Below are positions 30,584-44,264 of a stretch of 44,480 nt of DNA, one piece after another; the stretch's first letter is position 1; every line of letters begins with the position of its first letter. Both the position numbers and the translations under genes were made by a program. The DNA comes from Lutibacter sp. (GTDB lineage: Bacteria > Bacteroidota > Bacteroidia > Flavobacteriales > Flavobacteriaceae). Below the pieces are notes generated by a model, which had not been told where the DNA came from, searched no databases, and worked only from the letters and a program-made list of their open reading frames with translations. The stretch covers positions 1 through 44,480 of the forward strand of contig JAUYUA010000060.1 of the NCBI GenBank assembly GCA_030694935.1, read 5' to 3'.

Positions 30584-32479
30584 TTAATTCCAGCTTGGCA
30601 ATATACAACTTTTGTTTAATTTTTTTAACAAAGGTTTAATGCCGTTAACCAAACTTTGTTTCATCACTTTAGAATCATCTTTGTGGCATTGCAAACAAGC
30701 GCCAACCAACAATAATTGCTGTTGTTCATTAACTGTGAAAGGCCTAAAATCCAGTCTCGTTGAATTGATGGCACCTTTTTTAGGCGCAGTTAAAAATGGA
30801 ATCCAAGCGTCCTCCGGCAAATTATCATTTGGATTATTTGCATATTCCGGCGTAAAATTCCATTTTCCTTTGCCGTTTTTAACATCATATTCCAATTTTC
30901 CATTTCCGTAACCCAAGGTTGCCGAGTTTGCATGGCACGATTTGCAATCACGTACACTTTTGGTGGTTGTATGCGGGGAATTTGCAGCATACAATCTGAA
31001 AAAAGAAACATCCTTTCCAATTTCCTTTCCCACATAACTTCCTTTGTCAATTGTTAAAATCATTCCCGGAATGGCAGGTTCAATATGCCTTTTGTTTTTA
31101 GATTCCCTAACGCCCATGGCAGGCGGCGATGAGGAAAATTCAGCAACATGTTCTCTCCACTGGCCTTTTCCATATTTTAAATCCAATAAATCGAAAGCGC
31201 GTGGCTCATTTTTGTCGTATTCATTATGGCAACCAATGCAACGCGATGTCCACGAAGAATGGCAAGTGGCGCAACTTACATTTTTATGGGCATTGTCTCG
31301 GGAACAAACTTCCGACTGCGGTTTTAACTCGTGAATTTTACCGTCCTTTTTACCTATCAAAAAAGCTTTTCCTGAAGCATCAACATACGTGTTTACCAAC
31401 GGATGTTTGCCGTTTTCAACGGTAATAATTGGTTTGTCAGTATGTTTATAATCACGATGTAAAAAAACCAACAAGCTTTCTGCATCTAACTTGCTGTATA
31501 TCGTTGTATTTGGTTTGTCTTTAAAATGACAATCGGAACATTGCAGTTTTACGGCTTGTTCAGCGTGCGCATATTTTTTTCCGTCGCCCATAACTTCGTG
31601 AGAAGAATGGCAATCAACACACAACAAACCTTTATTATGATGTAAATCTTCTTTTATATATTTATACACCCGTTTATCTTCAGAAACTTTATAACCACTA
31701 TTCTTAGGCAAGTCTTTTTCATCCAATACTGTTTCCTGCCAGCCTTCATAATTGGTTGAAATTCTGCTCGATCGGCTGTGGCAACCATAACAATGCTCAT
31801 TTCTGACAAATATATTTGTGGCTGGATGAAATTTTGGCAAAACCTTTTTATTTGAACTTAAATACTTTTGTAAATCGTTTTTCGCTTCTTTGGAATAATT
31901 TAAGTGACAGGCATTGCAACCTCCGCCCCTGCTCATTTGCGTAATTTCACCAAATTCCGTTTTTTCTGCTCCCAAATGGCAATTGGCGCATAAATCCCTA
32001 ATATGTTTATCGGCTGCTGAATGTTTAACATCTTTTATATGATATTGATAATCGGGAGAATCGGCCTCTCCAAAAATATATTTATTTACGGCAACCAGGC
32101 CGCTATTGGTGGTCATCAGTGAATTTTCGATTTTAGCCAATTCATTTGGATGGCATTTTCCGCAGGTCTCTTTGGCGTCCGATAAATTTCCTGGAATTAA
32201 AACCATTCCCTTATGCGAATCATCTTTATCTAAAGTATTGGGATTTCCCAAATGGCAACTAATGCAACCAATAAGTTCCGGATTGTGATAATCAGAATCT
32301 CCTTTTGTGCCCGCATGACAATTTTGGCAAGATTCTTCGCCTATATTTTCAATTTTGGTGTACTTGCCTTCTTCAACAAAACTTTTTTGAAAATAATTTT
32401 TATTATATAGAAGAAAAAAAACGACAAGCAGCGCAATTACAAAGGTAAAGCCCGCAATTTTGAAATATTTTATTTTCAT
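30584..32479 (-). CDS. Membrane-anchored dodecaheme cytochrome c
   Basis: The 631-residue protein has one N-terminal membrane helix (about 8-25), no cleavage motif, and twelve CXXCH heme-attachment motifs spread over the periplasmic part: CQNCH (Cys51), CISCH, CGKCH, CANCH, CNACH, CYGCH, CVDCH, CSDCH, CATCH, CIGCH, CKSCH and CLQCH. It resembles multiheme cytochromes that carry electrons between quinol-linked complexes and terminal reductases. I cannot place it in a named family such as NapC, NrfA or MccA. It is divergent from the molybdopterin oxidoreductase operon with a 264-bp shared regulatory region, so it is probably a partner of that complex. The YhhN-type gene follows at 11 bp. Confidence 0.9.
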   Translation of the reverse strand: MKIKYFKIAGFTFVIALLVVFFLLYNKNYFQKSFVEEGKYTKIENIGEESCQNCHAGTKGDSDYHNPELIGCISCHLGNPNTLDKDDSHKGMVLIPGNLSDAKETCGKCHPNELAKIENSLMTTNSGLVAVNKYIFGEADSPDYQYHIKDVKHSAADKHIRDLCANCHLGAEKTEFGEITQMSRGGGCNACHLNYSKEAKNDLQKYLSSNKKVLPKFHPATNIFVRNEHCYGCHSRSSRISTNYEGWQETVLDEKDLPKNSGYKVSEDKRVYKYIKEDLHHNKGLLCVDCHSSHEVMGDGKKYAHAEQAVKLQCSDCHFKDKPNTTIYSKLDAESLLVFLHRDYKHTDKPIITVENGKHPLVNTYVDASGKAFLIGKKDGKIHELKPQSEVCSRDNAHKNVSCATCHSSWTSRCIGCHNEYDKNEPRAFDLLDLKYGKGQWREHVAEFSSSPPAMGVRESKNKRHIEPAIPGMILTIDKGSYVGKEIGKDVSFFRLYAANSPHTTTKSVRDCKSCHANSATLGYGNGKLEYDVKNGKGKWNFTPEYANNPNDNLPEDAWIPFLTAPKKGAINSTRLDFRPFTVNEQQQLLLVGACLQCHKDDSKVMKQSLVNGIKPLLKKLNKSCILPSWN

Positions 32480-32743: not shown

Positions 32744-34987
32744 ATGACTACTTCAAGAAGAAAATTTATCAAAATTTCTGCTTTAGGTTTAGGAGCTGTA
32801 GCAGCATCAACAACTGCAATAAATATGTTTGGATCTAATTCATATATAGATGAATTGGTTAAACAAAATGTTTCCAAAAAATTTAAAAGAACCGCCACCT
32901 ATTGCGAAGTTTGTTTTTGGAAGTGTGCCGCCTGGACGTATACAAATGAAGACGGAGAAATTAAAAAAATTATTGGTAACGACGACGATTCCCATTGTTA
33001 CGGTCGATTATGTCCGAGAGGAACAGGAGGCGTTGGAATGTATACTGATGAAGATCGACTTAAAACGCCTTTAATCAGAACAACCGTAAACGGTGAACAA
33101 ACATTCAGAAAAGCAAGTTGGGATGAAGCCCTTGATTTAATAGCCTCGAAATTTAAAGGCATTAAAGAAACTCATGGCGCAGAATCCATTGCTTTAATTA
33201 AACATGGAGCTCCCGGTTCGCATTTAGAACATCTTTTGAAAGCGTTTGGATCGGACACAATTGCTGAGCCAGCTTATGCACAATGCAGAGGACCGCGCGA
33301 AACTGGCTTTAATTTAACTTTTGGCTCTTGGGTTGGATCACCTGAACCAACTGATATTAGAGACACAAAATGTTTGGTGCTGATAGGTTCACATATTGGT
33401 GAAAATATGCACAACTCTCAAGTTCAGGAAATGTCTGACGCCATTGATAATGGCGCCACCATTATTACTGTAGATCCAAGACTTTCAACCGCAGCAAGCA
33501 AATCGAAATTTTGGCTTGCGATAAAACCTGCAACCGATATCGCTTTAATGCTTTCTTGGATGAATGTTTTAATAGAAGAAGGCATTTATGATAAAGAATA
33601 CATCAACAAATATGCAACAGGTTTTGATGAATTGAAAAAACATGTGAGCCAATTCACACCAGAATGGGCTTACGGAATTACCACCATAAAACCTGATGTG
33701 ATAAGAGAAACCGCACGAGCTATGGCGCATGCCGCTCCTGCTGTAATTATTCATCCCGGCCGGCACGTAGTTTGGTATGGTGATGATTCACAAAGAGCAA
33801 GAGCCATGGCCATTTTAAATGCCTTATTGGGTTCTTGGGGAAGACGTGGCGGTTTTTACTTTAAAGAAGCCGCGAAAGTCCCTAATTTTCCTGCACCAGC
33901 TTATCCTGAACCAAAATGGGGATGGAAAGAAATTGGAGAGAAATATCCTTTGGCTCAAATGGGAATTACCAATGAAGTTATGAAATGCATGCTTCCTGAT
34001 AAAGACAATAAATATCCGGTAAAAGCATTAATGGTTGCAGGCACAAACATCACCAAAGCGATGCCGAACAAAAAATTGTTGGAAGACGCTATGGATGCAT
34101 TAGATTTTATGGTTGTTATTGACACGATGCCGATGGATGTAACCGGTTATGCAGATGTTGTTTTACCAGAATGCACTTATTTAGAACGTTACGATGATAT
34201 TCGTTCCGCAACCAATAGAGAACCTTCCATTGCCATTAGAGTTCCTGCAGTTGAGCCAAAATACGAATCAAAACCTGCTTGGTGGATGGCCAAACAAATT
34301 GGTGAGCGATTAGGCTTGGGCGCTTATTTTAACTATGATGATTTCAAAGAAGTGATTGAATGGCAGTTGAAAGAAATGGGAACTTCTTTAGAGGAAATGG
34401 AAAAAATAGGCGTAAAAAATTATCCTCGCAAATCTGGACCAATGTATCTAAATGAAGATGAAACGTATAATTTTCCAACAGATAATGGAAAAATTCACCT
34501 TTATTCCCAGGAATTAAAGGATTTAGGATTTGACCCGATGCCAAATTACACAAAACACCCTGAACCGCCTCAAGGTTTTTACAGATTAAACTACGGAAGA
34601 GCGCCAATGCACACTTTTAGCAGAACTGTAAACAACCCTAACTTAAACGACTTGAAAAAAGAAAATGACCTTTGGGTAAATCCGAAAGTTGCAAGAATCA
34701 TTGGGTTGAAATCGGGCCAGGAAGTTTGGCTAAAAAATCAGGATGATATTATTTCCACATTTTCCATAAAAGTGAGAGTTACTGAAAGGGTTCGTTGGGA
34801 TTCTGTATATATGGTGCACGGCTTCGGACACCAAAACAAAGAATTAAGCCGAGCCAACGGAAAAGGAATTAACGATACGGAACTAATTACCAAAGTATTC
34901 ACCGATCCAATCATGGGCGGAACCGGAATGAGAGGGAATTTTGTTGCCATTTTAACTGAGAACCCACATAAAAATACTGAGATATGA
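32744..34987 (+). CDS. Tat-exported molybdopterin oxidoreductase, PsrA/PhsA-like catalytic subunit
   Basis: The 747-residue enzyme of the DMSO-reductase superfamily begins with a twin-arginine signal (T-S-R-R-K-F-I-K-I-S). A [4Fe-4S] motif follows, with Cys54-x2-Cys57-x3-Cys61 and Cys90 (R-L-C-P-R-G). Cys181 in Y-A-Q-C-R-G-P-R-E is the likely Mo ligand. The length matches polysulfide/thiosulfate reductase catalytic subunits (PsrA, PhsA, about 760). It would work in the periplasm with the Fe-S and NrfD subunits encoded next; the Fe-S gene overlaps its stop (ATGA). Downstream sulfur-transport and rhodanese-like genes favour a sulfur substrate such as thiosulfate, polysulfide or tetrathionate. 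Arsenate or selenate reductase, or a Qrc-like complex, cannot be excluded. Confidence 0.88.
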   Translation: MTTSRRKFIKISALGLGAVAASTTAINMFGSNSYIDELVKQNVSKKFKRTATYCEVCFWKCAAWTYTNEDGEIKKIIGNDDDSHCYGRLCPRGTGGVGMYTDEDRLKTPLIRTTVNGEQTFRKASWDEALDLIASKFKGIKETHGAESIALIKHGAPGSHLEHLLKAFGSDTIAEPAYAQCRGPRETGFNLTFGSWVGSPEPTDIRDTKCLVLIGSHIGENMHNSQVQEMSDAIDNGATIITVDPRLSTAASKSKFWLAIKPATDIALMLSWMNVLIEEGIYDKEYINKYATGFDELKKHVSQFTPEWAYGITTIKPDVIRETARAMAHAAPAVIIHPGRHVVWYGDDSQRARAMAILNALLGSWGRRGGFYFKEAAKVPNFPAPAYPEPKWGWKEIGEKYPLAQMGITNEVMKCMLPDKDNKYPVKALMVAGTNITKAMPNKKLLEDAMDALDFMVVIDTMPMDVTGYADVVLPECTYLERYDDIRSATNREPSIAIRVPAVEPKYESKPAWWMAKQIGERLGLGAYFNYDDFKEVIEWQLKEMGTSLEEMEKIGVKNYPRKSGPMYLNEDETYNFPTDNGKIHLYSQELKDLGFDPMPNYTKHPEPPQGFYRLNYGRAPMHTFSRTVNNPNLNDLKKENDLWVNPKVARIIGLKSGQEVWLKNQDDIISTFSIKVRVTERVRWDSVYMVHGFGHQNKELSRANGKGINDTELITKVFTDPIMGGTGMRGNFVAILTENPHKNTEI

Positions 34988-35517
34988 GATATGCAATGAT
35001 AATTGACACTTTAAAATGTGTTGGATGTAGTGATTGCGTTGTTGCTTGTCAAACCGAAAACGACGTTCCAATTGGGTATTGCAGAGATTGGATTACCGAA
35101 ACCGTAAATGGTTCCTATCCAAATCTGGAATTAGAATTAAAATCTGAAAGATGCAACCATTGCGACAATGCGCCTTGCGTAAGATGTTGCCCAACTGGCG
35201 CAAGCCATGTAGGTGTTGGCGGAATCGTTTTGGTTACTGCTAATGAGTGTATCGGTTGTGGTGCCTGTATAGAATCTTGTCCTTATGATGCACGTTTCCA
35301 ACATCCCGATGGTTATGTTGATAAATGTACATTTTGCCATCATCGATTGGAAAAAGGGCAACTTCCGGCTTGTGTATCTGTTTGTCCAACAAAATGTATG
35401 TATTTCGGAGATTTAGACGATCCAAATAGCGAAGTTTCACAATTACTAAAAAATAGAAAACACAAAACTTTGGCTCCTGAAGCAGGAACCAAACCACACG
35501 TTTTTTACTTAATTTAA
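34984..35517 (+). CDS. Four-cluster ferredoxin-like subunit, PsrB/PhsB-like
   Basis: The 177-residue electron-transfer subunit has four [4Fe-4S] cysteine groups: C-V-G-C-S-D-C-V-V-A-C, C-N-H-C-D-N-A-P-C-V-R-C-C-P, C-I-G-C-G-A-C-I-E-S-C-P, and C-T-F-C-H-H-R with C-V-S-V-C-P-T-K-C. This is the standard pattern of DmsB/PsrB/PhsB proteins, which wire the membrane subunit to the molybdenum subunit. No signal of its own is seen, so it would be exported with the Tat-bearing catalytic subunit. It overlaps the upstream gene by four bases; the NrfD gene starts 10 bp after its stop. Confidence 0.94.
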   Translation: MRYAMIIDTLKCVGCSDCVVACQTENDVPIGYCRDWITETVNGSYPNLELELKSERCNHCDNAPCVRCCPTGASHVGVGGIVLVTANECIGCGACIESCPYDARFQHPDGYVDKCTFCHHRLEKGQLPACVSVCPTKCMYFGDLDDPNSEVSQLLKNRKHKTLAPEAGTKPHVFYLI

Positions 35518-35527
35518 TATTAAAATT

Positions 35528-36487
35528 ATGCAAGAAGAATTATTTACAAGCGGAAGAGATATTCCAAATATAGATCCTTCATTACAAATATGGCACTGGC
35601 CAATATCGCTTTACCTGTTTTTGGGAGGAATAGCTGCGGGAATCCTGTTTTTTGCAGCCCTATTTTATGTGCTGGGAAAAGAAAAAGAGTATCCGGCGGC
35701 TGTTAAATTTGCCTCAATAATACCTCCTATTGCCTTATCAGTAGGTTTGCTGGCACTGGTTTATGATTTAACGCATAAATTATATACTTGGAGGTTGTAC
35801 ACTACCTTTAGAATTGAATCCCCAATGTCATGGGGTGCCTGGGTATTGCTCATTGTGACACCGCTTTCATTTTTGTGGTTATTCAGTTATTATGCTGAAA
35901 ATTATCCAAAAACAGAAGAAAAGTTACAATTATTGAAAAAATTCAAGTTTTTGGCAACATTTGAACAATTCTTAAAAACAAACAGGTTATACATTGCTTA
36001 TGCATTAATTCCTTTAACATTGGTTTTGGGTGTTTATACCGGTATATTACTGTCGGCTTTTAATGCAAGACCACTTTGGAACAATGCCATTTTAGGTCCT
36101 TTATTTCTAACATCCGGACTTTCAACAGGCGCTGCCGCTATTATTTTAATGGCAAAAACCAAAAAGGAAAAGCATTTGTTCGGAAAAATAGATTTAGGGT
36201 TAATTATCATTGAATTGGCTCTAATTGTCCATATGATTATGGGATATTATGCCGGTTCACAAGTGCAGCTTGAAGCCATGCAATTATTGGTTGGCGGTGA
36301 TTTTACACTCATGTTTTTTGGTTTTGTGGTAATTCTCGGATTAATTATCCCAGCCACACTTGAGCTTATTGAACTTATTGGCTATAAAGTTCCTGTAATA
36401 GTGCCTGCAATGCTGGTTATTTTGGGCGGATTAATATTTAGATTTGTAATGGTAGAAGCAGGACAACTAACCCGTTTTCTATATTAA
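35528..36487 (+). CDS. NrfD/PsrC-type quinol-interacting membrane subunit
   Basis: The 319-residue integral membrane protein has about eight hydrophobic helices and the NrfD start pattern W-H-W-P-I-S-L-Y-L-F-L-G-G-I-A-A-G. It anchors the molybdopterin/Fe-S pair to the membrane and exchanges electrons with menaquinol. With the two preceding genes it forms a complete PsrABC-like complex of the complex-iron-sulfur-molybdoenzyme class. It has no heme-binding CXXCH. The gene is followed at 11 bp by the YeeE-like gene, supporting one operon. Confidence 0.93.
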   Translation: MQEELFTSGRDIPNIDPSLQIWHWPISLYLFLGGIAAGILFFAALFYVLGKEKEYPAAVKFASIIPPIALSVGLLALVYDLTHKLYTWRLYTTFRIESPMSWGAWVLLIVTPLSFLWLFSYYAENYPKTEEKLQLLKKFKFLATFEQFLKTNRLYIAYALIPLTLVLGVYTGILLSAFNARPLWNNAILGPLFLTSGLSTGAAAIILMAKTKKEKHLFGKIDLGLIIIELALIVHMIMGYYAGSQVQLEAMQLLVGGDFTLMFFGFVVILGLIIPATLELIELIGYKVPVIVPAMLVILGGLIFRFVMVEAGQLTRFLY

Positions 36488-36498
36488 AACAAGAAATC

Positions 36499-37032
36499 AT
36501 GAAAAAAGAATTAAAACAAAAAAGTAAGCACATTTATTGGAATCCTTATTATGGAGGTTTTTTATTGGGAATTCTAATCTTGTTTACCTTTTATTTAACA
36601 GGCAGAGGTCTAGGAGCCAGCGGCGCCATGAAAAGTAGCGTTGTTTCTATTATTGAATCTGTCGCTCCAACGCATGCCGAAGAAAGCAGCTATTACAGCA
36701 AATTTATAACTGAAGATGAATCCCCAATGAAAAACTGGCTGGTATTTGAAACACTGGGCGTATTGATTGGTGCATTTATATCTGGTGGCTTAAGTGGAAG
36801 AATTGGTTGGAGAATTCAACATTCCCCTAAAATTACAAGCAAACGCAGACTTGTATTTGCGGTAATTGGCGGTGTTTTATTTGGACTGGGCGCGCAAATT
36901 GCACGTGGCTGCACAAGTGGTGCTGCGTTAAGCGGCATGGCTGTACTTTCAACGGGAGGCTTTATCACCATGCTGGCCATTTTTGGTTCGGCGTATGCAA
37001 CGGCTTACTTCTTCAGAAAAAATTGGATTTAA
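36499..37032 (+). CDS. YeeE/YedE (sulfur transport) family protein, N-terminal-half type
   Basis: The 177-residue membrane protein has N-P-Y-Y-G-G-F-L-L-G, G-R-G-L-G-A-S-G-A and the YeeE signature G-A-Q-I-A-R-G-C-T-S-G-A-A-L-S-G. Its only cysteine is Cys138. In TsuA (YeeE), characterised as a thiosulfate importer, conserved pore cysteines pass thiosulfate through the membrane. This gene and the next are each about half the length of full TsuA and together supply the cysteine motifs of both halves. There are about four to five membrane helices. It lies between the reductase genes and the second half, consistent with handling a sulfur substrate or product of the reductase. Confidence 0.88.
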   Translation: MKKELKQKSKHIYWNPYYGGFLLGILILFTFYLTGRGLGASGAMKSSVVSIIESVAPTHAEESSYYSKFITEDESPMKNWLVFETLGVLIGAFISGGLSGRIGWRIQHSPKITSKRRLVFAVIGGVLFGLGAQIARGCTSGAALSGMAVLSTGGFITMLAIFGSAYATAYFFRKNWI

Positions 37033-37055: not shown

Positions 37056-37646
37056 ATGGGACCTTTAATTCCTAACGGCGTAATTCCATTTGAATGGGAC
37101 AATATAATCGCCATATTAATTGGTATTGCTTTCGGATTTGTTTTGGAAGCGTCTGGATTTTCATCTTCCAGAAAGCTAGCCGGCGTTTTTTACGGCTATG
37201 ATTTTGCCGTTTTAAAAGTGTTTTTTACCGCTGCTTTGGTAGCTGTAATAGGTGTTTACTATATGGATTACCTTGGATTTTTAGATGTCAATCAACTATA
37301 TGTTCACCCAACTTATTTATGGGGAGCAATTATTGGCGGAATTATTATGGGTGTGGGATTTGTTGCTGGCGGATTTTGCCCTGGCACAAGTTTATGTGCG
37401 GTGGCTATCGGTAAAATTGACGCCATCGTTTATGTAGGCGGAATTATGGTTGGAATTTTCATTTTTTCTGAATTATATCCTTTATTTCAACCCATTTATG
37501 AAGGTTATTTTTACGGAAATGTAACCTTGGAAGATTCTCTTGGCATTAATCCATATTGGTTTGTATTTATATTTTCCATTATTGCAATTGTAGCATTTGT
37601 AATATCTGATATGGTGCAAAAAAGAGTTAAAAAAATATTTTACTAA
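37056..37646 (+). CDS. YeeE/YedE (sulfur transport) family protein, second half
   Basis: The 196-residue membrane protein has the family motifs G-F-V-L-E-A-S-G-F-S-S-S-R-K-L-A-G and G-G-F-C-P-G-T-S-L-C-A-V-A, with Cys108 and Cys114. It has about five membrane helices and a short basic C-terminus. It is the complementary half of a split TsuA-like channel with the preceding gene (23-bp gap). The substrate is inferred to be thiosulfate or a related sulfane sulfur species by family and context only. The rhodanese-like gene begins 12 bp downstream. Confidence 0.88.
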   Translation: MGPLIPNGVIPFEWDNIIAILIGIAFGFVLEASGFSSSRKLAGVFYGYDFAVLKVFFTAALVAVIGVYYMDYLGFLDVNQLYVHPTYLWGAIIGGIIMGVGFVAGGFCPGTSLCAVAIGKIDAIVYVGGIMVGIFIFSELYPLFQPIYEGYFYGNVTLEDSLGINPYWFVFIFSIIAIVAFVISDMVQKRVKKIFY

Positions 37647-37658
37647 AAAAATAACACC

Positions 37659-38321
37659 ATGGTTAAAAAAAAGATCGCAAAAGTTTTAGCTTTCAGATAT
37701 AAAATTTTGGCAGCAATTTTGATTTTACTTGCCGGAGGTTTGGTTTTATTGCCAAAATATCAAAAGCATGAAGGCATAAAGCCTGAAGAATTATTAAGCA
37801 ACACCATCAGTCCGGAAAGATATATGACTACCGACCGATTGGCGCATATATTAATCAACCAAGATCCTTCCTTCATATTGATTGACGTAAGGGATGAAAA
37901 AAGTTTTGCAAGTTATTCGCTTCCAAATGCCATTAATATTCCGCTAGAAAAATTATTTGATGAAGGTTCTGATAGTTACCTAAATCAAAATCAATTTGAT
38001 GTGGTGCTTTTTTCAAATGATAATTTTTATGCAGATCAAGCCTGGATTTTATGCAACCGTTTGGGATATAAACATATGCGTGTATTAAAAGGTGGCGTAA
38101 ATGAGTGGTATGCAACAATTATCAACCCGCTGAAGCCTGCTGATAATATGCCTGTAACTGATTTTGAGTTGTATGCAACAAGAAAAGCAGCCAGTATGTT
38201 TTTTGGCGTAGTTTATCCTGAACAAGTAAAAGTGGAAGCACCGGTAATTGTTAAGGAAGCGCCTAAAAAAGTAATCACCATTGAAAAGAAAAAGAAAGCA
38301 GAAGCCGAAGGCGGTTGTTAA
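37659..38321 (+). CDS. Membrane-anchored rhodanese-like protein 1, active-site Cys lost, GGC tail
   Basis: The 220-residue protein has a basic N-terminus and one membrane helix (about 14-32), so by the positive-inside rule the rest is periplasmic. A rhodanese fold spans about 55-155: F-I-L-I-D-V-R-D-E, L-P-N-A-I-N-I-P, and V-L-K-G-G-V-N-E-W. At the catalytic loop, where rhodaneses have Cys after the V-V-L-F/Y strand, this protein has Ser119 (V-V-L-F-S-N-D-N). It should therefore lack classical sulfurtransferase chemistry, although Cys132 lies nearby. A Lys/Ala/Glu-rich linker ends in A-E-G-G-C, with Cys220 as the last residue. The final 19 residues are identical to those of the next gene. I infer a periplasmic sulfur carrier or docking protein for the reductase/YeeE system. 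Confidence 0.85.
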   Translation: MVKKKIAKVLAFRYKILAAILILLAGGLVLLPKYQKHEGIKPEELLSNTISPERYMTTDRLAHILINQDPSFILIDVRDEKSFASYSLPNAINIPLEKLFDEGSDSYLNQNQFDVVLFSNDNFYADQAWILCNRLGYKHMRVLKGGVNEWYATIINPLKPADNMPVTDFELYATRKAASMFFGVVYPEQVKVEAPVIVKEAPKKVITIEKKKKAEAEGGC

Positions 38322-38434
38322 TTTTAAACTTTATAAAATTCACTTATGAAATGAGCATATCTATAATTTAATGTAAAAATGTATGAAAATATGCGAATTC
38401 CATAAGACCAATAAAAAACAATAATAGTTCACTT
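38322..38434. repeat. Duplicated start region between the two rhodanese-like genes
   Basis: TTCACTTATGAAA occurs at 38339-38351 and again at 38428-38440, where it contains the real start of the second rhodanese-like gene. In the first copy the ATG is followed by one codon and a stop. A further match, ATATCTATA, lies downstream of both copies. This is probably a decayed duplicate of the gene start. Confidence 0.5.
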
Positions 38435-39052
38435 ATGAAAGAATTAGAAAAAACCAAACGAATATCTATAGCTGCAACGCTTTTTATATTGGCAGTAATT
38501 ATTGGTCTTTTGACTTATAAAAGACCAAAAAATATTTATGCCATCAATACCAAAGACACACTTGAAAAAATAACAAGCGCGAATTACTTCACCACTTTAG
38601 AAGAGTTGAAAAATCCGGAATATGTGTTAATTGATGTAAGAAATCAATATGAATTCGAAAAAGGCCATTTGGAAAATGCCATTAATATCTATGCTCCTGA
38701 AATTTTAAGCGATGACAATATAAAAGTTTTCAATGAATTGAAAGAAAGTAATAAAATGGCTATTTTGTATGGGAATAACCCGCAAGAACCAAATGCCCCG
38801 TTTCTTATCCTTTATCAATTAGGCTTTGACAATATTAAACTGTTGGCTATTGAAAACAGTTATTTGCAAAATAAATTAATCTCAAAAAACACTGTCGTAG
38901 AAAAGTCTGAAGCCGATATAACCGCATTTATAAATGAATCGGTTAAAAAAGCGAATGCAACCGAAACCGTAAAAAAAGAGGTGGTGGCACCTCCTAAAAA
39001 AGTAATCACCATAGAAAAGAAAAAGAAAGCAGAAGCCGAAGGCGGTTGTTAA
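38435..39052 (+). CDS. Membrane-anchored rhodanese-like protein 2, active-site Cys lost, GGC tail
   Basis: The 205-residue protein has an N-terminal membrane helix (about 10-27) and a degenerate rhodanese domain (about 50-145). V-L-I-D-V-R-N-Q-Y-E-F, H-L-E-N-A-I-N-I and the A-I-L-Y strand are present. The catalytic-loop Cys is replaced by Gly113 (L-Y-G-N-N). The only cysteine in the whole protein is the C-terminal Cys205. It ends with PKKVITIEKKKKAEAEGGC, identical to protein 1, while the rest has diverged strongly. This pattern suggests the tail is the functional part, presented into the periplasm on a charged flexible linker. It is the last gene of the operon; a terminator follows. Confidence 0.83.
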   Translation: MKELEKTKRISIAATLFILAVIIGLLTYKRPKNIYAINTKDTLEKITSANYFTTLEELKNPEYVLIDVRNQYEFEKGHLENAINIYAPEILSDDNIKVFNELKESNKMAILYGNNPQEPNAPFLILYQLGFDNIKLLAIENSYLQNKLISKNTVVEKSEADITAFINESVKKANATETVKKEVVAPPKKVITIEKKKKAEAEGGC

Positions 39053-40070: not shown

Positions 40071-43000
40071 ATGTCCATTAACCTCAAAACAAGGGTATTT
40101 ATGAAAGCTTACAACAAAATATTTATAACCAACAGCTTGCGCTTTTTGTTGCTTGCCGCTATAATTGGCAGTGTGTTGGTGGTAGGTGGCTATTTTTATT
40201 ACAAGTATTCCGCAAAAGCAATACAGGCTGAAAAAGAAAATGGACTGAAAGCAATTGCAGGATTAAAAATTGACCAACTTGTTCAATGGCATAATGAACG
40301 AACTAACAATGCAGAAGCACTTTCATTTTCGCAACTTTTTACGAATGGGGTCGAAAAATGGCTTCAGGATAAAAGCAATAAGGAAAATGAACAGATTATT
40401 GCAGAAGCCCTTTCTTTGTCACAAAAAGAACATGAATATGAAAATGTTTCAGTCTTTTCAACAAGTGGAGACCTTTTGCTTTCGGTAGGTTCAAAATTAG
40501 AAAAAATTGATGACACCACTTCTAAAATGGTTGTTAAAGCAGCCAAGACAGACAAAATTTATTATTCTGATTTTTATTATTGCAAAGTCCATAATGAAAT
40601 CCATTATGATATTGTTGCCCCCATCAAAAACGAAAAAAATATCATTATTGCCATCTTAGTGTTTCGGATTGATCCCACACAATATATTTATCCTTTAATC
40701 CAATCCTGGCCAACACCAAGCAAATCAGCTGAAACACTGCTGTTTAAGAAAGACGGGGACAGCGTTTTGTACCTTAATGATTTGAGGCACCAAAATAATA
40801 CGGCATTAAAACTTCGTTTACCTTTAACCCAAAAAGATTTGCCTACCGCACAGGCAATATTGGGCAAAACAGGTATTATTGCGGGGAAAGATTACCGGGG
40901 CGTTGACGTGATTTCTTATTTAAGCCCTGTTCCCGAAACCGAATGGTTTATTGCCGCCAAAGTTGATAAAAAAGAAATTTTCGCTGAATTATATTTTAGG
41001 GGCATCATCGTTTCCATAGTAATTGCCTTGCTTATACTCTCCTTAACCCTTGGACTTATATGGATTTATCAATTCCGCCAAAAAAGCCTTTACAAAAGTT
41101 TATGGCAAGTACAGGAAGAATTCAGAACTACACTTTACAGTATTGGCGATGGGGTTATTTCCACAGACTTAAGTGGGCGCGTTAAGAATATGAATGATGC
41201 CGCTGAAAAATTAACCGGTTGGAAAGAAACGGATGCCATAGGAAAAGATTCAACAATTGTTTTCAAAATTATTAACGAAGAAACACGCTCCAAGGTTGAA
41301 AACCCTGTTAAAAAAGTATTGAGAGGCATAAAATTTGTAGGACTTGCAAATCATACGCTTCTAATTTCCAAAGATGGAACAGAAACACCCATTGCCGACA
41401 GCGGTGCGCCAATTAAAAATGAACAGGGCGAAATTATTGGCGCTGTACTTATATTTAGAGACCAAACTGAAGAAAGGTTGCAGCAAAATCTACTGGAAGT
41501 GCGTTTAAAGCTACATGAATTTTCTTCGTCACATTCACTAAATGAAATACTTACAAAAACTTTGGATGAAGTTGAAGTATTGACAAAAAGCAAAATAGGT
41601 TTCTACCATTTTGTGCTGCCCGATCAATTAACACTTCAACTTCAAGCATGGTCAACAAAAACAGAAAAAGAATTTTGCAAAGCCGACGGTAAAGGGCTTC
41701 ATTATAATGTGAGCGAAGCCGGTGTGTGGACTGATTGCATTCATCAAAAAAAACCGGTTATCCATAACGATTATGCATCGCTGCCGCACAAAAAAGGAAT
41801 GCCCGAAGGCCACGCACAAGTTACGCGAGAGCTTGTTGTCCCAATTTTGCGAAACGACAAAATTGTTGCAGTGCTTGGTGTGGGCAATAAACCTGACGAC
41901 TATACAGAAAAAGATATTGAAATTGTTGCCTTCATAGCCGATGTGGCTTGGGAAATAGCACAAAAAAAATTAAAAGATGAAGAAATAGAAGAAAGCAACC
42001 GCAAGTTTTATACAATGATTAACAACCTTAACGGCGTGGTTTATCGCTGTGCCAATGAAAAAGATAGACCTATGGAATATTTGAGCAATTCCATTTTTAG
42101 TTTATCGGGTTATCCCCCTTCCGATTTCATCAACAATAAAATTAGAAACTACAAATCAATTATTCACGCAGCCGACCAAGAAATGGTTTGGGATGAAATA
42201 CAAACTGCGATAAAACAAAAATTGCCCTATACTTTAGAATATAGAGTCCATACAGCCTTTGGCAAAGAAAAGTGGGTTGTGGAGCGCGGGCTAGGCGTTT
42301 TTGTTGATGATAAATTAAGCGCTCTTGAAGGATATATTAACGACATCACAGAACGTAAACTGGCAGAGGAGACATTGCGCAAGAGCGAGGAAAATTTATC
42401 CGTAACCCTCAATTCAATTGGTGATGGCGTAATCACTACCGATAGAGATGGATTGGTGGTTGGCATGAATCCTGTAGCCGAAAAACTTTGTGGCTGTGAA
42501 CAAGCCGCTGCCGCAGGCAAACCATTAACCGATGTTTTTAAAATTGTAAATGCAAGCAGCAGGGAAACGGTTGTTAACCCGGTGAAAATGGTACTTGAAA
42601 AAGGGCAAATAGTTGGGCTTGCAAACCATACCGTTTTGATTTCCAAAAATGAAACCGAATACCAAATTGCAGACAGTGCCGCCCCTATCAAAAATAAAGA
42701 AGGAGATATTATTGGGGTAGTTTTGGTTTTCTCGGACATAACAGAGAAATATGCAGCAGAAATGGCGTTGAGAGAAAGTGAGGAATTCAGTAGGTTTTTA
42801 TTGCAAACTATTCCTTTTGGCATGGATATCGTTGACGAGAATGGAATAATCCTATTCCAAAGCGAGAGTTTAAAAAAACACTTTAGCGGGGAGGCAATTG
42901 GAAATAAATGCTGGGAATTATACCGCGATGATAAAACCCAATGCCTGGACTGCCCAATAAATGAATCCATTGAGGTGGGCACCACCAAAGTAATAGAATC

Positions 43001-44264
43001 CGCACCTGTTTTTGGCGGCAAAATATTTGAAATTATTTATACAGGAATGGTGTTTGCAGGCAAAAAAGCATTGCTCGAAATATTTATTGATATCACTGAA
43101 CGCAAACAAGCTGAAATAGAGTTGACCTTCGCCAAAGAACAAGCACAGAAAAGTGACCGCCTTAAATCTGCCTTTTTGGCCAATATGAGCCATGAAATAC
43201 GAACCCCTATGAATGGTATTCTGGGCTTTTCCGAACTGTTGAAAGAACCAGAACTTACGACAGAAAAGCAGCAAAAGTATATCAGTATAATTGAAAAAAG
43301 CGGTGCGCGAATGCTCAATATCATTAACGATATAGTTGATATTTCAAAAATAGAGGCCGGTCTTATGAAAGTTGAGATGAGAGAGTCTAATATCAACGAA
43401 CAAATTGAATACATTTATACTTTTTTCAAGCCAGAAATGGAAGCCAAAGGAATACAATTTTCCTGTAAAAATACTTTATCAGTAAAAGAAGCCAATATCA
43501 TAACAGACCGCGAGAAAGTTTATGCCATCCTTACCAACCTTGTTAAAAATGCAATTAAATACACCGAGCAAGGCACAATAACTTTTGGTTATGAAATAAA
43601 AGGAAAATTTCTTGAATTTTTTGTGAAAGATACGGGAATGGGGATTCCTAAAGACAGACAGGATGCAATTTTTGAAAGGTTTATCCAAGCCGATATTTTT
43701 GATAAAATGGCACTTCAGGGTGCAGGATTGGGTTTGTCAATTTCTAAAGCCTATATAGAAATGCTTGGCGGAAAAATATGGGTGGACAGTGAAGAAGGAA
43801 AAGGAAGCACATTTTATTTCACGCTTCCTTACCAAAATGACTTGGCAATAAAAAACAATATCAAAAAAGTTGCACCGGTTGACAGCCCAGAAAATACGGT
43901 TAACAACCTTAAAATACTTATTGTTGAAGATGATGAAACGTCGGAAACACTTATTTCACTTATGGTCGATATCTATAGCAAAGAAATAATAACTGCACAT
44001 ACTGGCATTGAAGCAATTTTGGCTTGCCGCAATAACCCGGATATTGACTTGGTGTTGCTGGATATTCAAATGCCTGAAATGGACGGGTATGAAGCTGTCC
44101 GACAAATCCGTCAATTTAACAAAGATGTAATTATTATTGCACAAACAGCTTATGGTTTGTCTGGTGACAGAAAAAAAACTTTAGCCGCTGGCTGTAATGA
44201 ATACATTTCAAAACCAATAAATAAAAATGAATTGTTTGGTTTAATAAATAAATATTTTAAATAG
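40071..44264 (+). CDS. Hybrid sensor histidine kinase (sensor-PAS-GAF-PAS3-HisKA-HATPase-REC)
   Basis: The 1397-residue kinase has membrane helices at about 23-45 and 310-333 enclosing a Cache-like periplasmic sensor. These are followed by a PAS domain (about 350-470), GAF (about 483-628) and three more PAS domains (about 640-760, 775-898, 905-1015). HisKA follows with phospho-His1041 (N-M-S-H-E-I-R-T-P-M-N-G), then HATPase with N-L-V-K-N-A-I-K-Y-T, D-T-G-M-G-I-P and G-A-G-L-G-L-S-I. The receiver has phospho-Asp1331 (L-L-D-I-Q-M-P-E-M-D-G). The first and third PAS domains are near-duplicates (both have G-L-A-N-H-T-x-L-I-S-K). The last PAS carries Cys947-x10-Cys958-x2-Cys961. The ATG at 40101 (M-K-A-Y-N-K-I-F-I-T) is an equally good start. 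No output regulator is adjacent; control of the upstream sulfur operon is only a possibility. Confidence 0.93.
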   Translation: MSINLKTRVFMKAYNKIFITNSLRFLLLAAIIGSVLVVGGYFYYKYSAKAIQAEKENGLKAIAGLKIDQLVQWHNERTNNAEALSFSQLFTNGVEKWLQDKSNKENEQIIAEALSLSQKEHEYENVSVFSTSGDLLLSVGSKLEKIDDTTSKMVVKAAKTDKIYYSDFYYCKVHNEIHYDIVAPIKNEKNIIIAILVFRIDPTQYIYPLIQSWPTPSKSAETLLFKKDGDSVLYLNDLRHQNNTALKLRLPLTQKDLPTAQAILGKTGIIAGKDYRGVDVISYLSPVPETEWFIAAKVDKKEIFAELYFRGIIVSIVIALLILSLTLGLIWIYQFRQKSLYKSLWQVQEEFRTTLYSIGDGVISTDLSGRVKNMNDAAEKLTGWKETDAIGKDSTIVFKIINEETRSKVENPVKKVLRGIKFVGLANHTLLISKDGTETPIADSGAPIKNEQGEIIGAVLIFRDQTEERLQQNLLEVRLKLHEFSSSHSLNEILTKTLDEVEVLTKSKIGFYHFVLPDQLTLQLQAWSTKTEKEFCKADGKGLHYNVSEAGVWTDCIHQKKPVIHNDYASLPHKKGMPEGHAQVTRELVVPILRNDKIVAVLGVGNKPDDYTEKDIEIVAFIADVAWEIAQKKLKDEEIEESNRKFYTMINNLNGVVYRCANEKDRPMEYLSNSIFSLSGYPPSDFINNKIRNYKSIIHAADQEMVWDEIQTAIKQKLPYTLEYRVHTAFGKEKWVVERGLGVFVDDKLSALEGYINDITERKLAEETLRKSEENLSVTLNSIGDGVITTDRDGLVVGMNPVAEKLCGCEQAAAAGKPLTDVFKIVNASSRETVVNPVKMVLEKGQIVGLANHTVLISKNETEYQIADSAAPIKNKEGDIIGVVLVFSDITEKYAAEMALRESEEFSRFLLQTIPFGMDIVDENGIILFQSESLKKHFSGEAIGNKCWELYRDDKTQCLDCPINESIEVGTTKVIESAPVFGGKIFEIIYTGMVFAGKKALLEIFIDITERKQAEIELTFAKEQAQKSDRLKSAFLANMSHEIRTPMNGILGFSELLKEPELTTEKQQKYISIIEKSGARMLNIINDIVDISKIEAGLMKVEMRESNINEQIEYIYTFFKPEMEAKGIQFSCKNTLSVKEANIITDREKVYAILTNLVKNAIKYTEQGTITFGYEIKGKFLEFFVKDTGMGIPKDRQDAIFERFIQADIFDKMALQGAGLGLSISKAYIEMLGGKIWVDSEEGKGSTFYFTLPYQNDLAIKNNIKKVAPVDSPENTVNNLKILIVEDDETSETLISLMVDIYSKEIITAHTGIEAILACRNNPDIDLVLLDIQMPEMDGYEAVRQIRQFNKDVIIIAQTAYGLSGDRKKTLAAGCNEYISKPINKNELFGLINKYFK

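Follow-up and report, generated by a model that had tools for sequence, protein, structure and literature searches.

The window, that is, the whole stretch of DNA that was analysed (44,480 nucleotides), belongs to a 3.2 Mb Lutibacter genome (G000; genomes and loci are designated G and L throughout) and carries on its forward strand an apparent operon, which runs in the order PsrA/PhsA-type catalytic subunit, Fe-S subunit, NrfD-type subunit, YeeE1, YeeE2, P1 and P2 (Table 1). The catalytic subunit reached 463 bits with the NCBIfam model PhsA, under the cut-off of 694. YeeE1 corresponds to the C-terminal half of TsuA (aligned to residues 234-315 of 6leo), while YeeE2 alone gave no PDB match at E 0.01; both are PF04143 halves with a conserved cysteine, which was counted in YeeE1, where Cys138 is invariant in the 14 chosen sequences of alignment A6, and seen in single sequences of YeeE2. 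Homologues of the multihaem cytochrome with 12 CXXCH motifs adjoin the Psr-type operon in several relatives (L009, L014, L027, L062 and L063), and this protein may serve as an electron partner of the operon; ExtM, the model closest to it, originates from a selenite/tellurite reduction operon. About 1 kb downstream of P2 (window 40071-44264) lies the gene of a possible regulator, a hybrid sensor kinase of 1397 aa that combines PAS, GAF, HisKA, HATPase and receiver domains. Directly downstream of P2 no extra rhodanese with a cysteine loop is encoded in the window; such proteins are encoded downstream of P2 at L062:5662-7666 (CYSGQ/CYTGQ) and L025:2691-3728 (CKSGQ/CYTGQ), and they are candidate sulfur donors.

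Table 1. Features of the Psr-type operon and the adjoining cytochrome gene (positions in the window).
Feature	Position	Strand	Basis
PsrA/PhsA-type molybdopterin catalytic subunit	32744..34987	+	Best PDB match 2vpw (molecule name thiosulfate reductase), E 2.8e-182
4Fe-4S electron-transfer subunit	34984..35517	+	Pfam Fer4_11; best NCBIfam NrfC, under cut-off
NrfD/PsrC-type membrane subunit	35528..36487	+	PF03916 E 9e-49
YeeE1, half of split YeeE-type sulfur transporter	36499..37032	+	PF04143 E 3e-25
YeeE2, other transporter half, GFCPGTS motif	37056..37646	+	PF04143 E 2.1e-16, profile positions 7-152 of 310
P1, membrane-tethered pseudo-rhodanese, 220 aa	37659..38321	+	ORF; Pfam Rhodanese E 1.5e-13, residues 68-152; AlphaFold model
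P1 transmembrane helix, residues 16-34, N-terminus predicted inside	37704..37760	+	Hydropathy, positive-inside count, model helix 2-29
P1 Ser119 codon, aligned with rhodanese catalytic Cys	38013..38015	+	Alignment with 6mxv; Ser in 24/24 P1
P1 flexible Lys-rich tail, residues 190-220, terminal Gly-Gly-Cys (Cys codon 38316-38318)	38226..38318	+	Low pLDDT; EGGC in 26/26 readable relatives
P2, second membrane-tethered pseudo-rhodanese, 205 aa	38435..39052	+	ORF; Rhodanese E 2e-12, residues 56-137
P2 Gly113 codon at catalytic-Cys position	38771..38773	+	Gly in 23/24 P2, Ser in 1/24
P2 tail, protein identical to P1 tail (Cys codon 39047-39049)	38993..39049	+	Sequence match; concerted evolution
Divergent multihaem c-type cytochrome, 12 CXXCH	30584..32479	-	CXXCH count; closest NCBIfam ExtM, under cut-off

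The last two proteins of the operon have a rhodanese fold (PF00581), on which Foldseek agrees, its matches being rhodanese domains with 6mxv_B at the top (E 5.7e-07). The active-site cysteine of the solved rhodanese 6mxv aligns with Ser119 of P1, and this loss, which the sequence-only reading had overlooked, extends to almost the entire family: within a set of 116 tail proteins, all of them selected for a C-terminal Cys or Cys-X, 114 have Ser, Ala, Gly or Asp at the catalytic position and two have Cys (the P1 proteins of L080 and L084), and the P1 of L098 has a cysteine one position ahead of the site. Pfam at E 0.01 returned only Rhodanese for P1 and P2, with neither a SoxY nor a TusA-like domain, and for the tail proteins scanned Pfam and NCBIfam offered only generic rhodanese models, all hits being under the NCBIfam cut-offs. 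The AlphaFold model of P1 combines a long N-terminal helix (residues 2-29), a confident rhodanese domain and a disordered tail, for which the pLDDT falls in successive blocks to 63, 60 and 51 from residue 191 onwards; its overall pLDDT of 81.5 was obtained when P2 homologues were added, as compared to 55 with P1 homologues alone.

With regard to membrane orientation, Lys and Arg are richer on the N-terminal side of the helix in 23 of the 24 close-family P1 proteins, suggesting from residue counts that the N-terminus of P1 lies inside and its domain in the periplasm. The same excess occurs in 18 of 28 other P1 proteins of the phylum sample and in 11 of 24 P2 proteins, and the predicted topology of P1 and especially that of P2 is thus unsure. 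In the five fusions of YeeE2 with a tail protein that were examined by a simple hydropathy and charge scan, six helices, an N-terminus free of Lys and Arg and a basic loop before the last helix were found, and the rhodanese domain is predicted to be outside.

P1 and P2 share their 19 C-terminal residues, PKKVITIEKKKKAEAEGGC, and 59 of their last 60 bases, the sole difference being a silent ATT/ATA exchange; bases 38262-38321 have a single other match in the genome, at 38993-39052 (98%). The terminal cysteine is the only one in P2, while P1 has a second cysteine that is poorly kept and is absent in L021, L028 and L029. The bodies, on the other hand, are unlike: the two window proteins are 29% identical overall, tail included, and the identity between P1 and P2 bodies of the same genome averages 23% across 24 genomes. 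When P1 was used as a single query against all genome contigs, a scan that detects close relatives only, 29 loci were retrieved, namely 27 from Bacteroidota, mostly Lutibacter and other Flavobacteriaceae, which provide the closest P1 relatives, and two from Polynucleobacter (L030-L031), whose proteins have no tail. The C-terminus of P1 could be read in 26 of the 27 Bacteroidota loci, L027 being cut by the contig end, and it is EGGC in all 26; P2 ends in EGGC in 24 of the 25 cases with a readable end, window included. These four residues are among the invariant columns in both alignments A1 and A2 (21 of the 24 P1-P2 pairs). The exception is found at L025:1809-2342, in a Lutibacter metagenome-assembled genome, where P2 stops just ahead of the tail and P1 retains EGGC; either the second copy may be decaying or the sequence may be in error here.

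The near-identity of the two tails had initially been attributed to recent duplication or to gene conversion of the tail. A recent duplication of the whole gene can be rejected, because the bodies are only about 23-29% identical and P1 and P2 are separate on the tree, where they are not neighbours and the P2 branch is long (2.24) and of unsure placement. What stands is that the tails evolve in concert. In the 24 genomes with a complete P1-P2 pair (L009, L014, L025 and L027 are omitted because P2 is missing, cut or tail-less or, in L027, P1 is cut, and L030-L031 because the Polynucleobacter matches have no tail), tail residue identity is 0.871 within genomes versus 0.720 between genomes, a value reached by 0 of 5000 shuffled pairings, and codon agreement at equal tail residues is 0.695 versus 0.616 (4 of 5000 shuffles). 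For the bodies the corresponding figures are 0.231 versus 0.227 for residues (144 of 5000) and 0.474 versus 0.468 for codons (1600 of 5000). The window pair has the highest codon agreement of the 24 genomes, with 18 of 19 tail codons identical. Such a pattern, as read from these comparisons, fits concerted evolution of the P1 and P2 tails through gene conversion, selection for a common partner, or both. A mere repeat at the DNA level was rejected, since the codons of the last residues vary.

To what extent the tail is distributed beyond the close family was addressed in a sample of 395 Bacteroidota genomes, to which the profile searches were confined and which may partly overlap with the named genomes of the close-family scan. 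The P1 profile matched 65 of these genomes at E 1e-8 and the YeeE1 profile matched 65 at E 1e-15, the latter at 69 places. The P1 matches, read with their neighbours, together with the places found by YeeE1 only yielded 69 loci with YeeE1; all counts rest on mechanical reading of ORFs and on loci that were selected for a P1 or YeeE1 match. At 67 of the 69 YeeE1 loci a rhodanese-type ORF has cysteine as its last or next-to-last residue, nearly always as Gly-Cys, so that the tailed rhodaneses beside YeeE genes which the sequence-only reading had proposed to search for occur across the phylum sample. The two remaining loci (L136 and L137) are weak YeeE1 matches (E 1.7e-21 and 3.6e-22) located beside a different, longer rhodanese ORF. 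Expressed per protein, an end cysteine is present in 69 of 75 rhodanese-profile ORFs linked to YeeE1, the six others being three longer rhodaneses (L091, L101 and L118), the ORFs at L136 and L137, and in L119 the N-terminal portion encoded by a frameshifted P1 gene, versus 2 of 17 such ORFs not linked to YeeE1. These two are P1 and P2 of G296, a genome without a YeeE1 match in which both tails are kept beside a Psr-type operon, and YeeE is therefore not always the partner of the tail proteins. That homologues in the operon might lack the cysteine was found once, in the P2 of L025 described above, whereas every full-length member of the tail family beside YeeE1 retains Cys as the last or next-to-last residue.

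Across the 68 tail proteins of the phylum sample, which are included in the set of 116, the endings are GGC (34), EGC (19), GGC plus one residue (7), MGC (4), GLCS (2), FQC (1) and DGC (1). Hence the cysteine end emphasized at the outset is widely kept, but the Gly-Gly pair is not essential, as tails often end in EGC or GGC-X. Within 68 neighbourhoods, 55 of 1052 non-overlapping ORFs of at least 90 aa end in Cys and 52 in Gly-Cys; all 52 match the P1/P2 profile, indicating that Gly-Cys endings are not due to chance, and none of them is an unrelated protein carrying the tail. An alignment of 27 members (A4), chosen for diversity and every one of them tail-bearing, has just five invariant columns, Asp75, Arg77, Leu137, Gly214 and Cys215 in first-row numbering, which places the last two residues among the best kept of the protein. 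Two other identities for the tail were rejected: a C-terminal sorting or anchoring signal, because the C-terminal regions of the 10 tail proteins checked contain no hydrophobic segment, and a ubiquitin-like thiocarboxylate carrier with an exposed Gly-Gly, because 24 of 68 proteins end in EGC, MGC or DGC and the fold is that of a rhodanese. Some loci depart from the common arrangement. At L119:7948-8600 (G294) the P1 gene is frameshifted, with a KKKKREGC tail in the other frame, owing to either a sequence error or a decaying gene; the fusions at L132:7846-9042 and L135:6676-7872 end in GGLCS instead of GGC and lie between two multihaem ORFs; and L109:620-4714 holds short ORFs of repeated peptides (SNCTNVELK, FNSTLVQLD) which look like a repeat array such as CRISPR.

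The genes accompanying the tail proteins were surveyed at 68 loci with 71 tail ORFs, where the stretches of L032 (the operon of the window itself) and L036 are too short to be judged. Three kinds of module were distinguished. The first contains a PsrA-type ORF (26 of 68 loci, plus the window itself) and the second an ORF with 8 or 9 CXXCH motifs (35 of 68); the single ORF of the second kind that was scanned is an octahaem cytochrome of the tetrathionate-reductase family (571 bits versus a cut-off of 375), with a cytochrome b adjoining. The third kind (L078, L091, L101, L104 and L118) has YeeE1, YeeE2 and the tail protein, with neither a PsrA-type ORF nor an ORF of at least 7 CXXCH in the stretch, and each of these loci encodes another rhodanese-type protein upstream, with a YCHIG(Q/M)QA loop in the upstream sulfurtransferase of L078, L091, L104 and L118. 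A cysteine-desulfurase-like gene follows in L091 (SufS-family, under the cut-off) and in L104, and these two loci (L091:6965-11026, L104:5898-9906) thus bring together a cysteine-bearing sulfurtransferase, YeeE1, YeeE2, a terminal-Cys rhodanese and a cysteine-desulfurase-like gene, possibly a route of sulfur assimilation. Of the 71 tail ORFs, 35 are fused to YeeE2, 34 of these in the second kind and one (L079) in the first, and at 65 of the 68 loci only one tail protein is encoded. A tree for which the last 25 residues were removed requires at least four changes of module kind, and its starred branches make two or more gains or losses of the kind holding nearly all fusions unavoidable, with L132/L135 and L079 sitting apart from the main fusion group; this tree has some long branches and an arbitrary root, and its module kinds were set by hand ahead of the survey, L079 being marked as Psr-type though fused and L109 as belonging with the fusions though unfused. 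A tail that stays constant while the partner enzymes change is as expected of a carrier and not of a part of one enzyme.

Starting from the observed fold, the loss of the catalytic cysteine, the conservation of Gly-Cys, the gene linkage and the fusions, we infer that the terminal cysteine carries sulfur, as well as the sulfur species and the direction of transfer. In our assessment P1 and P2 are probably periplasmic, tethered pseudo-rhodaneses whose terminal cysteine carries sulfane sulfur to the cysteine relay of YeeE. The rhodanese domain, having lost its own catalytic cysteine, would act as a docking or binding body, and the working thiol would be placed at the far end of the tail, a disordered arm of about 30 residues whose basic side chains may attract anionic sulfur species. 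This cysteine would take up sulfane sulfur, as a persulfide or a short polysulfide chain, made or used by a partner enzyme (the Psr-type complex in the window, an octahaem cytochrome or a sulfurtransferase elsewhere) and present it at the periplasmic mouth of YeeE1-YeeE2, where the sulfur would enter the relay of the transporter. A protein body that is anchored in the membrane or fused to the transporter, and that exposes a free thiol on a long basic arm, appears to be well placed as a YeeE donor. The tail protein would then play, outside the cytoplasm, the part that YeeD plays at the cytoplasmic exit, where it accepts thiosulfate. Of the new type of membrane-tethered sulfur carrier that was originally envisaged, the rhodanese fold, the single N-terminal helix, the flexible tail, the conserved thiol and the tie to sulfur genes have been borne out, while sulfur carriage itself would follow from these by interpretation. 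Several observations count against this reading: tails are kept in G296 without YeeE1, the P2 of L025 is tail-less, the topology is unsure, the catalytic cysteine is present in L080 and L084 and a near-site cysteine in L098, one protein ends in FQC and two in GLCS, and the tail is disordered in the model.

The same G296 genome, with its tails and Psr-type operon, would also agree with the view that the tail cysteine only feeds polysulfide sulfur to the Psr-type or octahaem enzyme, YeeE performing another step such as thiosulfate uptake, and Sud is indeed described, in the available part of the account, as supplying PsrABC with polysulfide (PMC10092268). We consider this unlikely, as the linkage is to YeeE, including the fusions, and as the five loci of the third kind have no PsrA-type ORF or ORF of at least 7 CXXCH in the stretch. 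A purely redox role appears rather improbable as well. A flexible tail with a lone cysteine can link two molecules through a disulfide, and the similarity of the P1 and P2 tails within genomes would suit a homodimer or a P1-P2 heterodisulfide acting as a thiol switch instead of a sulfur carrier; however, the surrounding genes encode sulfur enzymes together with a sulfur transporter, and the P1-P2 pair is not general, given that nearly all loci hold one tail protein. That the tail is a docking peptide binding YeeE, Psr or the octahaem enzyme, with a structural or metal-binding cysteine, would accord with its mean net charge of +4.3 (last 20 residues, 59 proteins) and with the co-variation of tails within genomes, but it is very improbable, since the stretch preceding the cysteine varies (RMGC, VEVEEGGC, KKKREGC) while the cysteine stays fixed and since a lone cysteine is a poor metal site.

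Returning to delivery of sulfur to YeeE by the tail, a more far-reaching version of it is that the reactive cysteine has moved from the rhodanese loop to the tip of the arm and become a 'zeroth cysteine', sulfur passing from an extracytoplasmic enzyme to the tail Cys, the YeeE2 Cys, the YeeE1 Cys and the cytoplasm, and that across the phylum three unrelated modules of sulfur enzymes have come to use this same arm; we propose this tentatively and give it somewhat less than an even chance. Excerpts of the literature call the entry of sulfur into the cytoplasm via YeeE/SoxT-type transporters poorly understood (PMC11582611), and for this type of entry the tail family is a candidate donor, being membrane-tethered, in many cases fused to the transporter, and equipped with a conserved thiol at its end. 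If this is true, the rhodanese domain has been kept as a body while the chemistry moved to the tail, and a YeeE-linked rhodanese ending in Gly-Cys would constitute a sequence mark for sulfur-handling modules.

Among known systems, Sud carries sulfur on the cysteine of its rhodanese site, whereas P1 and P2 have Ser119 and Gly113 there and a thiol on the C-terminal tail, P1 being moreover membrane-anchored and tied to YeeE. As far as the cited passages go, Sud of Wolinella succinogenes resembles P1 and P2 in being a periplasmic, polysulfide-binding, rhodanese-type protein that serves the Psr-type complex PsrABC (PMC10092268), and a rhodanese-type protein encoded together with such a complex is what the window and 26 loci contain. 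SoxY is stated in the accessible text to bind sulfur on the cysteine of a C-terminal GGCGG (PMC6067878). This end motif is similar to that of the tail proteins, 7 of 68 of which end in GGC plus one residue, but P1 and P2, unlike SoxY, have only a rhodanese domain by Pfam. DsrC/TusE differ from the tail proteins in being cytoplasmic and in having no rhodanese domain. Their partners differ too, those of DsrC being DsrEFH and DsrAB, and in the part of the account cited here DsrC binds sulfur through the penultimate cysteine of its flexible C-terminus (PMC3397948). By analogy, SoxY and DsrC would be precedents for a sulfur-binding cysteine at the end of an arm and hence for the arm cysteine of P1 and P2 as a putative sulfur site. 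SaoC, a 'Cys-Cys-COOH selenoprotein' in the excerpt concerned, can be likened to the tail proteins by its name only, for its conserved C-terminal cysteine, and is listed there with Sao ABC-transporter proteins (PMC13188914), its company being ABC transport.

On the transporter side, YeeD/TsuB resembles the tail proteins as a cysteine protein partnering YeeE: in the passages cited, YeeE passes thiosulfate along cysteines to YeeD, the proposed 'fourth cysteine' (PMC11073785). YeeD is TusA-like and on the cytoplasmic side, whereas the tail proteins are rhodanese-like and predicted to be periplasmic. PmpA/PmpB and YedE1/YedE2 resemble YeeE1/YeeE2 in consisting of two YeeE-family halves with a conserved cysteine each, and the split YedE1E2, in which each half has one cysteine that is essential, is an importer of zero-valent sulfur; a terminal-Cys rhodanese is not mentioned alongside them in the cited parts of these accounts (PMC11582611, PMC10812762). 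Likewise, in the excerpts at hand the route of sulfur to the YeeE-like SoxT is left open, with a periplasmic donor among the proposals (PMC11582611), and for YeeE/YedE of Desulfurivibrio the proposed source of sulfur is periplasmic sulfurtransferases (PMC12142623). A description of a terminal-Cys pseudo-rhodanese with YeeE was not found in the open-licence PMC literature, as represented by partial texts. In conclusion, periplasmic sulfurtransferases feeding YeeE are already in print, and what looks new is the tail family and its tail.
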